From Candidatus Bathyarchaeota archaeon (GTDB lineage: Archaea > Thermoproteota > Bathyarchaeia > Bathyarchaeales > DTEX01), in assembly GCA_018396555.1 (NCBI GenBank), contig JAGTQL010000003.1, positions 1-41,721 on the forward strand: 41,721 nt of DNA, written 5' to 3'. Below, one piece after another: positions 95-41,176 of this stretch (positions are counted from its first letter, which is position 1; each line of letters starts with the position of its first letter). A program made the translations under genes and the position numbers. Below the pieces are notes generated by a model. It ran no database searches. It saw only the letters and a program-made list of their open reading frames with translations, and had not been told where the DNA came from.

Positions 95-892
95 TTAAAC
101 CACAAAGCTAAATTTTCTAAAATAAATATTTTCCGTTTTCTCATTTAAATGTAAGTATTTGATGTAATAATTTTTAGATGCAATTTCATTCTCTGCACTT
201 TTGATATTTCCCGGTTCTAGCTCTATACTTAGGGATTCCTCAAATCCACGAATTAATGCATGTTTTACTTCAGTCATACTTATTTCTCGATTCAGCTCGT
301 CTCTAATTTTTGTAAGTGGGCTCCATACGCTTGTGCTTTCTCTTCTTTTCTCATCATTGTAAACTGTAAGCGCTTTTTTCAGCACATTTAAGTCTGAGTC
401 AACTAGAAGTGTTCCATGATGCAGTATAACGTTTCTTCTCCTCAATTGCGCAGAACCAGAAATTTTCTTTCCACAAATAAATATGTTTCCCGGAGGAAGA
501 AAACTGATCGATGATAACCCAAGTAGCTCTAATCCCTTAATTATTCCAGAACAAAGAATCCTGTACGATCCCGCTATATCTAATCCTTTCACCAAGCGGT
601 CATTACTATCTAAAACTATAGTGTAGTTCAAATTACCTAAGTCGTGATAAACTGTTCCTCCACCAGAAAACCTTTTGACTACCTGAATTCTCTCCTTAAT
701 GCATTCCTCAAGGTTAACTTCGGCACAAACTTTTTGAGATCGACCCAATATAACTGCGCGATTGTTTCTCCAAAACCTAAGGGTTGTTGGGACAATCCCC
801 TGAATTCTAGCCTCGAGAATAGCCTCGTCAATAGCTAAGTTCATCGCGGCATCATAAGTTATCTCAGAGTCCAGCAATCTCCATGTTACCAA
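95..892 (-). CDS. lplA: lipoate-protein ligase A (catalytic domain)
   Basis: Transfers lipoate, via lipoyl-AMP, to the lysine of lipoyl domains; here the likely client is the E2 encoded just downstream. The 265-residue protein carries the family signature RFSGGGTVYHD (residues 74-84) followed by LGNLNYT, and the adenylate-binding lysine region GKKISGSAQ (141-149). The start is a TTG at 892; no in-frame ATG lies near the N-terminus. Archaeal LplA is often bipartite (catalytic LplA plus a small separate accessory protein, known from Thermoplasma). This protein is about the length of the Thermoplasma catalytic subunit, and no accessory gene is visible here. It shares a strand with E2 and E1, 58 nt beyond the E2 stop, so co-transcription is likely. 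The distinction from an octanoyltransferase of the same fold rests on motif and context. Confidence 0.88.
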   Translation of the reverse strand: MVTWRLLDSEITYDAAMNLAIDEAILEARIQGIVPTTLRFWRNNRAVILGRSQKVCAEVNLEECIKERIQVVKRFSGGGTVYHDLGNLNYTIVLDSNDRLVKGLDIAGSYRILCSGIIKGLELLGLSSISFLPPGNIFICGKKISGSAQLRRRNVILHHGTLLVDSDLNVLKKALTVYNDEKRRESTSVWSPLTKIRDELNREISMTEVKHALIRGFEESLSIELEPGNIKSAENEIASKNYYIKYLHLNEKTENIYFRKFSFVV

Positions 893-34652: not shown

Positions 34653-34660
34653 TTTATTAA
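34653..34660 (+). promoter_or_regulatory. promoter (TATA box) of the SRP RNA gene
   Basis: TTTATTAA centred about 26 nt before the predicted 5' end of the SRP RNA, with GCAAATAG immediately upstream in the position of the B-recognition element. Spacing is exactly what an archaeal promoter needs, so it also supports the chosen RNA 5' end. Confidence 0.65.
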
Positions 34661-34682
34661 TCCCAAAAACTAAAAATCTAAT

Positions 34683-35076
34683 GGACGGCGGGTCTTAGGC
34701 GGGGAGCTAGGGGTCCCCTGAGAGACGCACGGTCTCGACCGTAAACCCCCCTATACGACGGGCCGAAAGCTAAAGTGAGGCGTGTAAGGCCGCGGATCCG
34801 GCCGACCCTAAGCGATGAGTATCTGTCCTCTGGGGCTGGCGGTCGCGGGGCATCCTCCGTAGGGAGGGTGTAACCGCGTTTGTCAAGCGAACCTGGCCAG
34901 GCCCGGGAGATGGGGTGAGGGAAGTAAAATGGGAAGGGTAACATTGCTGAATAGGCTGTCCACCCGAAGGAGCAACCTAAGCTTGGGCGTTCAGCGCTCA
35001 GAGGGGTGCGGGTATGAGCGGTGGGCTGGTTTGGGTTTGCGGATTCTGCGCGTCGAGCTTTAGTGGCCCGCCGTCC
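34683..35076 (+). ncRNA. signal recognition particle (7S) RNA, interrupted in helix 8
   Basis: RNA scaffold of the signal recognition particle that targets nascent secretory and membrane proteins. The termini pair as archaeal helix 1: GGACGGCGGG at 34683-34692 with CCCGCCGTCC at 35067-35076. The Alu-like 5' domain is recognisable (34738-34770, GACCGTAAACC...GGGCCGAAAGC). The S domain has GTAACCGCG, GCGAACCTGGCCAGGCCC and AGCAACCTAAGC, then GGGTGCGGG...AGCGGTGGGCTGG. These are the conserved helix 5, 6 and 8 strands of archaeal 7S RNA. The gene is 394 nt, longer than the usual 300-320. About 59 nt of the excess sits exactly in the helix 8 apical loop (34910-34968) and looks like an intron; the spliced product would be about 335 nt. 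Exact ends may differ by one or two nt. Confidence 0.92.
34910..34968 (+). other. predicted bulge-helix-bulge intron in SRP RNA
   Basis: The insert borders fold as the substrate of the archaeal tRNA-splicing endonuclease. Central 4-bp helix CGGG (34904-34907) with CCCG (34963-34966); 3-nt bulges AGA (34908-34910) and AAG (34967-34969); inner helix UGGG (34911-34914) with UCCA (34959-34962, one G-U). Cutting after the second nucleotide of each bulge removes 34910-34968 and joins the flanks as CAGG-CCC-GGGA-GGG-AGCA. That is the normal helix 8 arrangement of symmetric loop, 3-bp stem and tetraloop (GGGA instead of the more common GGAA). The outer helix is SRP helix 8 itself, starting at C34903-G34970. 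There is no open frame within the intron. Splicing itself is predicted, not shown. Confidence 0.78.
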
Positions 35077-35203
35077 GCCCATGTCTCCTTGAAAGATAAT
35101 CCTCCATATCGCAAGTAGGCAGTTCCAAAGTTAATGTCTAGGTTTTAATAATGCGCTTTTTTAAGAGCGGCTACATGAACTTTAGAATCCTAAGCGGCGC
35201 ACA

Positions 35204-38157: not shown

Positions 38158-39093
38158 TTATTTCAGAAGCTCGCGAAGATGAACTTTTATAGGTCCAATT
38201 TTCCCACCGTAGTTCCCAGCTGATATCTTCAGGACGCCTGGGGCTTTAACGGCAGCTTTTATGCCCTCAGCCATGGCCATCTTAACATTTTCTAAGCCTA
38301 CCCCGTTGATCACAATTTCATATATGGCATTCACGTTTTTTGGAACCTGGCTTTCCGGCAGAATTTCCCTAAGTCTAGGGCAGAAGATGTGGTTTGTTGA
38401 TGCTGGAAGCTTATATTTTAATGAGCCTATCTTGGAGCCGGAGCGACATATCCCCCCTGGAAATGGGAGGATTACGCCTTTAACTTTCCCGCGTATCGCA
38501 TCGGCAGCCGCCTCAGCAGCTAAGAGCCCAGACTTCATATCTTTTGCCATTATAAAGAAGTTTCCGCCGGCAACGCCCTTCTTAACGCCAAAAATGCTCT
38601 CAACAATGAATTCTCCTTCCATGACTGGTATACGCCAAACTCTCCGACCGTACATTTCATCAAACTTCTGGAATCCATCACCGAAAAAACGTAGGCTTCT
38701 GCCAACCTTCAGTTTTCTAGCGGTTCCATGAAGCGCATTAAAAGCAGCCGTTGTTGGGCATGTCATTACGCACTGTCCTATACGCGCTATCATCTGCTTT
38801 TTCAAATCGCTTCTGGTCCGATGGTAAATCTGTATTATGGCACCAACCCGCCCGTCAGGGGTCTCGCTGGGTGAAACAAGCCCTTCAACGCCAGCTTCAG
38901 CTGGCGAACCTATTATCGAGGATGCGAATCCAGTTGCAACTTCAGCTGCGATTAAGGCCCACTTCTCATTCTCAGCTGTTATCAGAATCCTCCCAACCCA
39001 CATTTCAAATATTTCGGCAAACGTATCTTCTATTTCCACCTCATTATAGCGGAGCAAGTAATACACCTCTCTCGGATCTTTAATTAGTTTCAT
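38158..39093 (-). CDS. ftr: formylmethanofuran:tetrahydromethanopterin formyltransferase
   Basis: Second step of the archaeal methyl branch: moves the formyl group from methanofuran to tetrahydromethanopterin. The family is recognisable throughout: DTFAEIFEMWVGRILITAENEKWA, the GFASSIIGSPAEAGVE block, IGQCVMTCPTTAAFN, FFGDGFQ, LPFPGGICRSGSK, and a C-terminus with ISAGNYGGKIGPIKVHL. 311 residues, slightly longer than methanogen Ftr (about 297). It is divergent from fmdD-fmdB across 227 nt, so both halves of CO2-to-formyl-H4MPT chemistry sit side by side. In non-methanogens it is part of the Wood-Ljungdahl pathway or formate and formyl oxidation. Confidence 0.95.
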   Translation of the reverse strand: MKLIKDPREVYYLLRYNEVEIEDTFAEIFEMWVGRILITAENEKWALIAAEVATGFASSIIGSPAEAGVEGLVSPSETPDGRVGAIIQIYHRTRSDLKKQMIARIGQCVMTCPTTAAFNALHGTARKLKVGRSLRFFGDGFQKFDEMYGRRVWRIPVMEGEFIVESIFGVKKGVAGGNFFIMAKDMKSGLLAAEAAADAIRGKVKGVILPFPGGICRSGSKIGSLKYKLPASTNHIFCPRLREILPESQVPKNVNAIYEIVINGVGLENVKMAMAEGIKAAVKAPGVLKISAGNYGGKIGPIKVHLRELLK

Positions 39094-39320: not shown

Positions 39321-39743
39321 ATGGAGTTTACATTAATAACTGGGCGGACGATAAATCAGGGCCGTGGGAGGGAGCACGGTAAGTTTTCTGAGGAATACTT
39401 GGTGAACGTTGCTGTTTGCGAGATGAACCCTGACGATATGAAAAGGCTTAATATAAAAGATGGAATGAACGTTAGGGTTACGACCGAGGTGGGCTCGGTG
39501 ATCGTTAAAGCTAGAAAGTCGAGGAGAATAAAGACGCCGGGCGTAATATTCATGCCATATGGGCCCTGGGCAAACGCGGTTCTAAAGCCTGAATCTGAAG
39601 GAACAGGTATGCCGCTGCTTAAGGGGCTGAAGGCTAATGTTGAGCCAACTGAGGATGAGGTTTCAAATCTGAAAGATCTTCTTATCGAAGCTTACGGAAG
39701 CAGTAAAATAGTGAAATCGGAGGAGCAGAAATTATGGATGTAA
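39321..39743 (+). CDS. fmdD: formylmethanofuran dehydrogenase subunit D
   Basis: Small subunit that binds the pterin dinucleotide of the Mo/W cofactor. The 140 residues form a single molybdopterin-dinucleotide-binding beta domain. TLITGRTINQGRGREHGK is the typical start, followed by CEMNPDDMKRLNIKDGMNVRVTTEVGSV and VIFMPYGPWANAVL. AGGAAGGT precedes the ATG. It overlaps fmdB by ten nt, so the two are translated together. Subunits A and C are not in the window. Confidence 0.93.
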   Translation: MEFTLITGRTINQGRGREHGKFSEEYLVNVAVCEMNPDDMKRLNIKDGMNVRVTTEVGSVIVKARKSRRIKTPGVIFMPYGPWANAVLKPESEGTGMPLLKGLKANVEPTEDEVSNLKDLLIEAYGSSKIVKSEEQKLWM

Positions 39744-41176
39744 TCTCAAGCGTTGTTTGCCCAGTTTGCGGATGTTGCTGCGATGATCTAGAAGTTCTGG
39801 TCGATAATAATCGGATAGTTGATGTTAGAAATGCTTGCGCTTTGGGTGCAGCGAAGTTCTTAAATTATAGCGGACATAGAAATACGAAGCCTCTTGTGAG
39901 GAAAAATGGTAGGCTGGTTGAGGCTTCCCTTGAAGAGGCTATAGAGAGAAGCGCTGAGATGCTTGCAAACGCATCCTACCCGCTTCTTTACGGCTGGAGC
40001 TCAACTAGCTGTGAAGCTATAAGAGTTGGTTTAGAGCTGGCTGAGGAGGTTGGAGGTGTAATCGATAATACGTCGACTATCTGTCACGGCCCCTCAGTAA
40101 TCGCCATACAAGAGGTTGGTTTACCTGCATGCACCCTAGGCCAGATTCGCCATAGAGCTGACTTGATAGTGTATTGGGGAAGTAACCCGTGGAGCGCGCA
40201 TCCACGCCATATAGAGCGCTACACGGTTCTAGCTGAGGGGAGATTTCAGAAGGGCATATGGAAGCGTTACCTTTCACGCCTAGTCTTTGAATCTGCAATT
40301 AAGAGAAGATATAGGGTGGCGAGCCTAGTTTTTAAGGGAGGAAGCGCATCGCCCCCTGCCCATGAGGTGTTCAGTCAGCTTTTGCCGCCTAGCGAGGAGA
40401 GGAAGCTTGTTGTTGTAGATGTTCAAAGAACTCGGACTGCTGATTTAGCGGATTTCTTTGTAAGAGTTGAGCCTGGCGGCGACTATGATGTTCTGCAGGC
40501 GCTTCGCGCTCTTATCCGGGATGAAGAATTGGACGTCGATGAGGTTGCAGGGGTTCCGATTGAGACGCTTGAGGAGCTGGCTGATCTAATGGTTAATACA
40601 AGGTTTGGCATATTATTTTTCGGCTTAGGTTTGACTATGAGTGTTGGTAGATCGAGAAACGTTGAGGCCGCAATAAAGCTGACTAGGGATCTAAATAGGT
40701 ACACAAAGTTTCTCATAATGCCGATGAGAGGGCACTTCAATGTTACCGGCGCTGACACTGTTTTTACTTGGCAGACAGGCTACCCTTACGCCGTTGATTT
40801 CTCGCACGGCTATCCGAGATATAATCCAGGTGAAACTTCAGCTATTGATGTACTTACAAAGGATGATGTTGATGCAGCATTGGTGGTTGCCTCTGATCCG
40901 GCCTCAAACTTTCCGAGGAAGTGTGTAGAAAACCTAGTTAAGAAACCGTTAATAGTCATCGATTCTCATATGTCGGCAACAGCCCTGGTGGCTGACGTTG
41001 TGATCCCCTCCGCCTTCGTTGGTATAGAGGCTGAAGGCACAACCTACCGTATGGATCATGTGCCGCTTCCCCTGAAGAAGATCGTTGAGCCTCCGGAAGG
41101 ATGCTTGCCGGATGAGGAAATACTGAGAATGATGCTTGAAAGGGTTCGGGACATTAAAGGGAGAGAATCCTCCTAA
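39734..41176 (+). CDS. fmdB: formylmethanofuran dehydrogenase subunit B
   Basis: Catalytic Mo/W-bisPGD subunit that reduces CO2 to formate before transfer to methanofuran. The N-terminal [4Fe-4S] site is CPVCGCCCDDLE (C9, C12 and one of C14-C16) with C35 as a likely fourth ligand. The metal-coordinating cysteine is in TSTICHGPSVIA (C117), matching the cysteine of tungsten FwdB, so this is a Cys rather than a selenocysteine enzyme. YWGSNPWSAHPRH and VVASDPASNFPRKC are further conserved blocks. The protein is 480 residues against about 430 in methanogens; part of the excess is an insertion around 158-190. It is followed by asnS, so no further fmd gene is linked. Confidence 0.93.
   Translation: MDVISSVVCPVCGCCCDDLEVLVDNNRIVDVRNACALGAAKFLNYSGHRNTKPLVRKNGRLVEASLEEAIERSAEMLANASYPLLYGWSSTSCEAIRVGLELAEEVGGVIDNTSTICHGPSVIAIQEVGLPACTLGQIRHRADLIVYWGSNPWSAHPRHIERYTVLAEGRFQKGIWKRYLSRLVFESAIKRRYRVASLVFKGGSASPPAHEVFSQLLPPSEERKLVVVDVQRTRTADLADFFVRVEPGGDYDVLQALRALIRDEELDVDEVAGVPIETLEELADLMVNTRFGILFFGLGLTMSVGRSRNVEAAIKLTRDLNRYTKFLIMPMRGHFNVTGADTVFTWQTGYPYAVDFSHGYPRYNPGETSAIDVLTKDDVDAALVVASDPASNFPRKCVENLVKKPLIVIDSHMSATALVADVVIPSAFVGIEAEGTTYRMDHVPLPLKKIVEPPEGCLPDEEILRMMLERVRDIKGRESS

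Follow-up and report, generated by a model that had tools for sequence, protein, structure and literature searches.

The apical loop of helix 8 of the archaeal SRP RNA is interrupted, in a Candidatus Bathyarchaeota genome, by an insert of 59 nt that is very probably (at about 0.92) a conventional cis intron of the bulge-helix-bulge (BHB) type, predicted from its sequence to be removed by the tRNA-splicing machinery. The insert lies at 34910-34968 (+) of the window, i.e. the whole stretch of 41,721 nt that was analysed (contig JAGTQL010000003.1), and its host is the only SRP RNA gene found in the assembly to which the window belongs (G000). The reading as a cis BHB intron is strongly supported because intronless orthologues at the syntenic locus carry the predicted spliced sequence, because sister species share the insert and inserts recur at the same bond in other lineages, and because a splicing endonuclease, the RtcB ligase and a canonical SRP54 are encoded in the genome. 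Such an intron had been proposed in an earlier inspection of the DNA letters alone (the sequence-only reading), and orthologues, sister inserts, recurrence and encoded enzymes all speak for it; direct reading returned the same edges, the last base of exon 1 being 34909 and the first base of exon 2 being 34969. The probable assignment to Bathyarchaeia made at that time agrees with the deposition of a same-genus genome as Ca. Bathyarchaeota.

The archaeal SRP RNA model (RF01857) matches the window at 34686-35073 (+) with 135.2 bits (cmscan), above the gathering score of 96.5 and over the full model (positions 1-317), this being the sole match above threshold in an Rfam scan of the window. The covariance search places a 61-position insertion relative to the model at the tip of helix 8, which bears out the view that the SRP RNA is split at the helix 8 apex. 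Exon 1 (34683-34909, +) comprises the 5' strand of the Alu domain, the linker, helix 6 and the 5' strand of helix 8, and ends with CAGGCCCGGGAG; its start is set at 34683, ahead of the model match at 34686, on the basis that about 3 more bp can be added to the outer end of helix 1. Exon 2 (34969-35076, +; model match to 35073) opens with GGAGCAACC and continues with the 3' strand of helix 8, the linker and the 3' strand of the Alu domain. Model positions 1-317 are collinear and helix 1 is paired, which excludes a permuted SRP RNA of the Thermoproteus type, with the 3' half before the 5' half and helix 1 lost. A group I or group II self-splicing intron was also rejected, the insert being only 59 nt long (22-101 nt in relatives) as against a catalytic core of hundreds of nucleotides, and the Rfam scan of the window matching SRP RNA only. 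An antisense ORF (34678-35082) has no Pfam match. The locus is orthologous whether or not the intron is present: in either case it is preceded by a phosphoglycerate mutase gene and followed by a TtuA-like gene (Pfam names). Elsewhere in the window, a molybdopterin oxidoreductase is found as two overlapping ORFs (39321-39743, then 39734-41176; 39321-41176 overall) with a dinucleotide-binding domain upstream, and a formylmethanofuran formyltransferase gene (38158-39093) adjoins these ORFs.

Read directly, the interrupted region is GGCCAGGCC CGGG AG/A UGGG ... UCCA CCCG AA/G GAGCAACC (slashes mark the predicted cuts; all elements are on the + strand). The exon strand CGGG (34904-34907), invariant in the nine of nine intron-bearing SRP RNAs, pairs with the intron strand CCCG (34963-34966), which is found in every intron at this site, to give a 4-bp central helix flanked, on opposite strands, by two 3-nt bulges, namely AGA (34908-34910; predicted cut 34909/34910) and AAG (34967-34969; predicted cut 34968/34969). 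Within the intron, UGGG (34911-34914) pairs with UCCA (34959-34962) in an inner helix of 4 bp, the last pair being G-U. The arrangement had been called a textbook hBHBh: the central helix, the 3-nt bulges and the inner helix are present, but the strict hBHBh' form, with helices on both sides, is not, the outer helix being reduced to one C-G pair followed by mismatches. The missing outer helix weakens the word 'textbook' rather than the assignment to the BHB type, because heterotetrameric endonucleases accept relaxed motifs (PMC4731332). The insert borders defined by the intronless relatives fall exactly at the two bulges, and the insert ends permit no sliding, as the bases at 34909 and 34968 differ, and so do those at 34910 and 34969. 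Among shuffled inserts of the same composition, a Watson-Crick central helix together with at least 3 inner pairs at the exact positions occurred with a frequency of 3.8e-5, or 4.5e-4 when G-U pairs were allowed.

All nine introns end in CCCGAA and all nine first exons in CGGGAG. Pairing in the inner helix is maintained, and two compensatory changes, UA to CG and AU to GC, are seen there, both of them in the genome of Ca. Bathyarchaeota ILS 300 (G162). When the partner strand is shifted by 1 to 3 columns, the paired fraction, 97.5% in register, falls to 48% or less, in an alignment of five distinct rows only and with a modest shuffle control (37-47/500). Folding of the full RNA gives the BHB as the minimum-energy structure in G008, G257 and G258; the BHB lies above the minimum by 2 kcal/mol in G016 and by 3 to 6 in G162, G000 (5.3) and G240; the 100-nt local fold of G000 is no better than shuffles. 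Little weight attaches to fold energies in any case, since the accepted mature loop is also unpredicted in the spliced G000 RNA (probability 0.001), so that unconstrained folding, whether of the whole precursor or of some 100 nt around helix 8, was set aside as of little use.

In the family survey an SRP RNA match was obtained for 16 of 21 genomes, and 13 of these 16 SRP RNAs are, by span, without the insert. Eleven intronless relatives, i.e. the family members whose helix 8 was caught by a sequence expression, read GGCCAGGCCCGGGAG/GGAGCAACC at the junction, with 1-2 substitutions upstream of it; this is the product expected when each bulge is cut behind its second base and, therefore, the predicted spliced sequence. 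Excision between the second and third bulge bases would thus restore a functional RNA, as judged purely by comparison with these 11 relatives, and the proposal that cleavage returns the loop in register agrees with their helix 8 sequence. Two sister species, an uncultured archaeon (G016) and Ca. Bathyarchaeota JZ-2_2_bin_4.3.1 (G008), carry inserts of 60 nt at the same place and form one clade with G000 (support 99/96). Over aligned positions, G000 and G016 are identical at 97.6% of exon and 91.5% of intron bases, and G000 and G008 at 96.3% and 81%, respectively: the insert changes faster than the exons.

At the identical bond, inserts of 22 to 101 nt are also found in two further Bathyarchaeia genera and in Baldrarchaeota. 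The surveys of the order (163 genomes, 132 with an SRP RNA match) and of the class (257 genomes, 211 with a match), judged by span and, where loci were fetched, by sequence, gave seven genomes with an insert at this bond (G000, G008, G016, G162 and G240-G242), nearly all other surveyed relatives being without it at the helix 8 bond. That of G162 is 22 nt long (GCGGGCGCUUAACCCGCCCGAA), and those of G240, G241 and G242, which are the three genomes examined of genus g107, measure 99, 101 and 101 nt. In all three g107 genomes (loci L057, L262 and L264) the exon reads CAGGACC as against CAGGCCC, which turns the outermost pair of the helix 8 cap into A-G, and this change accompanies the 99-101-nt intron. 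A pattern scan of named genomes, which picked up G008, G016 and G162, had among the matches listed at least two Asgard (Baldrarchaeota) genomes with an insert at the identical bond, namely Ca. Baldrarchaeota MAG_95 (26 nt; SRP RNA 168.5 bits) and Baldrarchaeota Yap30.bin4.67 (24 nt); the remaining matches listed are mostly bacterial chance matches. The related genome G260 has an uninterrupted GGCCAGGCCCGGGAGGGAGCAACC. The intron pattern is otherwise absent from 228 Asgard genomes and, in 398 genomes of the window's phylum, is absent apart from G000, G016 and one chance-like match; a match in G635 (L206), of unrelated-looking sequence, was taken as chance. This distribution is a lower bound because pattern surveys miss introns longer than about 76 nt and other exon variants.

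Inserts of 22, 24, 26 and 99-101 nt thus occur at one bond in four lineages with the same BHB layout. On the SRP RNA tree the intron label needs at least four changes (gains or losses), all forced by supported branches, and therefore gains have been repeated or losses have been very many. Between g1 and g107, the intron interiors mostly resemble one another no more than shuffles do (of nine pairs, one reaches 3/1000; one stands at 25/1000), and the shared borders, AUGG...CCACCCGAA, may reflect common descent, transfer or convergence. A broader proposal, in which the helix 8 loop would be the target of a mobile or repeatedly arising BHB intron with these borders, found in Bathyarchaeia and Baldrarchaeota and spread between archaeal phyla, and in which the permuted SRP RNA genes of Thermoproteus would have arisen from such an intron state, is put forward tentatively and is considered rather doubtful. 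A tRNA intron as donor was rejected: the SRP intron shows no similarity to the sequence around 30 tRNA genes of G000, nor does it match anything else in the 83% of G000 that was read beyond chance matches of 10-22 bases. Permuted or split forms were also looked for in genomes with only partial SRP matches. Of these, L064 and L066 were discarded for N runs in the loci, and L067 (G056, 260-480, minus strand), which lacks much of the linker and of helix 6 and keeps helix 8 and the Alu arms, was set down to a real deletion or to a long hairpin having been mis-assembled; most of the genomes are drafts, and damage to SRP RNA loci is common in assemblies.

Both enzymes of archaeal splicing are encoded in G000. 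Two PF01974 proteins, present likewise in G008, G016, G257 and G258, are consistent with a two-subunit endonuclease type, the one with the most relaxed BHB recognition (PMC4731332), and RtcB is detected as PF01139 with 582 bits. At least 7 of the about 30 tRNA genes detected in G000 are interrupted (L237, L241-L246). Most have inserts of about 20-58 nt in the anticodon loop, and that of L243 (G000:C85:1913-2009) is apparently in the D-loop region.

The SRP54 of G000 is ordinary, its M-domain RNA-binding motif (SRIRRIARGSG) being conserved with respect to solved archaeal SRP54, and this bears on whether the insert might be a helix 8 expansion that stays in the mature RNA and that SRP54/SRP19 tolerate or accommodate. 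Basidiomycete yeasts do keep extra sequence in the universally conserved helix 8 of their mature SRP RNA (PMC4605306), and the fold of G000 does not favour the BHB. However, the yeast insertion is found in the asymmetric loop and goes along with an altered SRP54 (PMC4605306), whereas the insert of the window is in the apical loop and has BHB borders, and the ordinary SRP54 argues that the mature helix 8 of G000 is ordinary. Furthermore, a retained expansion fits poorly with lengths that vary between 22 and 101 nt at one bond while BHB borders and CCCGAA ends are never missing, with an excision product that equals the intronless allele exactly, and with an interior that changes faster than the exons, so that we consider it very improbable.

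Still less probable is that the interrupted gene is a dying or silent copy, with an intact SRP RNA gene in the missing part of the assembly, which spans 1.74 Mb in 120 contigs and is 90% complete, i.e. leaves 10% in which such a gene might lie. The possibility of a second intact gene had been raised by the sequence-only reading, and the whole assembly returns one SRP RNA match only; a single SRP RNA was likewise found in each intron-bearing genome, G016 with its 96% completeness among them. The exons are 96-98% identical among the three species, and a TATA-like box, TTTATTAA (34653-34660, +), read directly about 25 nt upstream of the SRP RNA 5' end and taken as a putative promoter box by consensus resemblance, is identical in G016 and G008. 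A single copy is the usual state, G048, G096 and G100 having two or three SRP RNA matches apiece. An assembly or chimera artefact, for which one might invoke the draft, largely metagenome-derived assemblies and the N runs or suspect deletion at the SRP RNA loci of several relatives, is very improbable, as separate assemblies (JAGTRG010000046.1, CALKGV010000053.1, WUQV01000146.1, DXJG01000001.1 and JAEOSG010000002.1) have inserts at the same base with diverged interiors, and the insert has no second copy in what was read of G000.

If the insert is a cis BHB intron, the precursor would be transcribed as one unit, the exon CGGG would pair with the intron-end CCCG and the intron ends with each other, forming two 3-nt bulges at the tip of helix 8. 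The two-subunit tRNA-splicing endonuclease would then cleave each bulge between its second and third bases (34909/34910 and 34968/34969), and RtcB would join the exons and probably circularize the 59-nt intron, the joining restoring the helix 8 cap CCC-GGGA-GGG for SRP19/SRP54 assembly. We infer cleavage, joining and the intron circle by combining the anatomy with what is established for archaeal tRNA splicing, and the spliced RNA from sequence. In T. tenax an opened helix 8 loop lowers the binding of SRP19 and SRP54 (PMC4731332) and, therefore, it is plausible that the unspliced precursor is non-functional. The suggestion of the sequence-only reading that splicing might serve as a checkpoint of SRP assembly is speculative.

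The closest known system is that of Thermoproteus tenax and T. uzoniensis, which have a permuted, circular SRP RNA (PMC4731332). The two share the interruption of the helix 8 tip, the BHB at the junction, processing by the tRNA-splicing endonuclease and a ligation that restores the loop, these last steps being predicted from sequence in the present case. In Thermoproteus, however, the halves are permuted and the circular mature RNA has new ends at helix 8, whereas the gene of the window has the normal order, an intact helix 1 and a plain cis insert. With the BHB introns of archaeal tRNA, rRNA and cbf5 mRNA (PMC4090602; PMC7714728) the insert shares the 4-bp central helix, the two 3-nt bulges and, as a prediction, the cut after the second bulge base by the splicing endonuclease with joining by RtcB; it differs from them in that its host is SRP RNA and in that the outer helix is nearly absent. 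Archaeal tRNA BHB introns range from 11 to 129 nt (reviewed in PMC4090602; PMC7714728). A 2020 study described the cbf5 mRNA intron as the sole BHB intron reported to date besides those of tRNA and rRNA, and added one in the 5' UTR of HVO_1309, a haloarchaeal mRNA leader (PMC7714728). The literature searched, which was thin on subscription journals, gave no mention of an archaeal SRP RNA with a cis intron. What the sequences point to is a BHB intron whose host RNA is new and which recurs at one bond in two archaeal phyla.

If this is true, SRP RNA would join the short list of RNAs with cis BHB introns in archaea (tRNA, rRNA and one or two mRNAs), and the intron would reside in the most conserved protein-binding loop of a universal RNA. 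It would supply the simple-intron form that the 2015 Thermoproteus paper only postulated as ancestor of the permuted SRP RNA genes (PMC4731332), making that evolutionary path testable, and archaeal SRP RNA annotation should allow for helix 8 inserts. Its recurrence at a single bond in Bathyarchaeia and in an Asgard group, with intronless sisters, would offer a natural system for the gain and loss of introns in a non-coding RNA.
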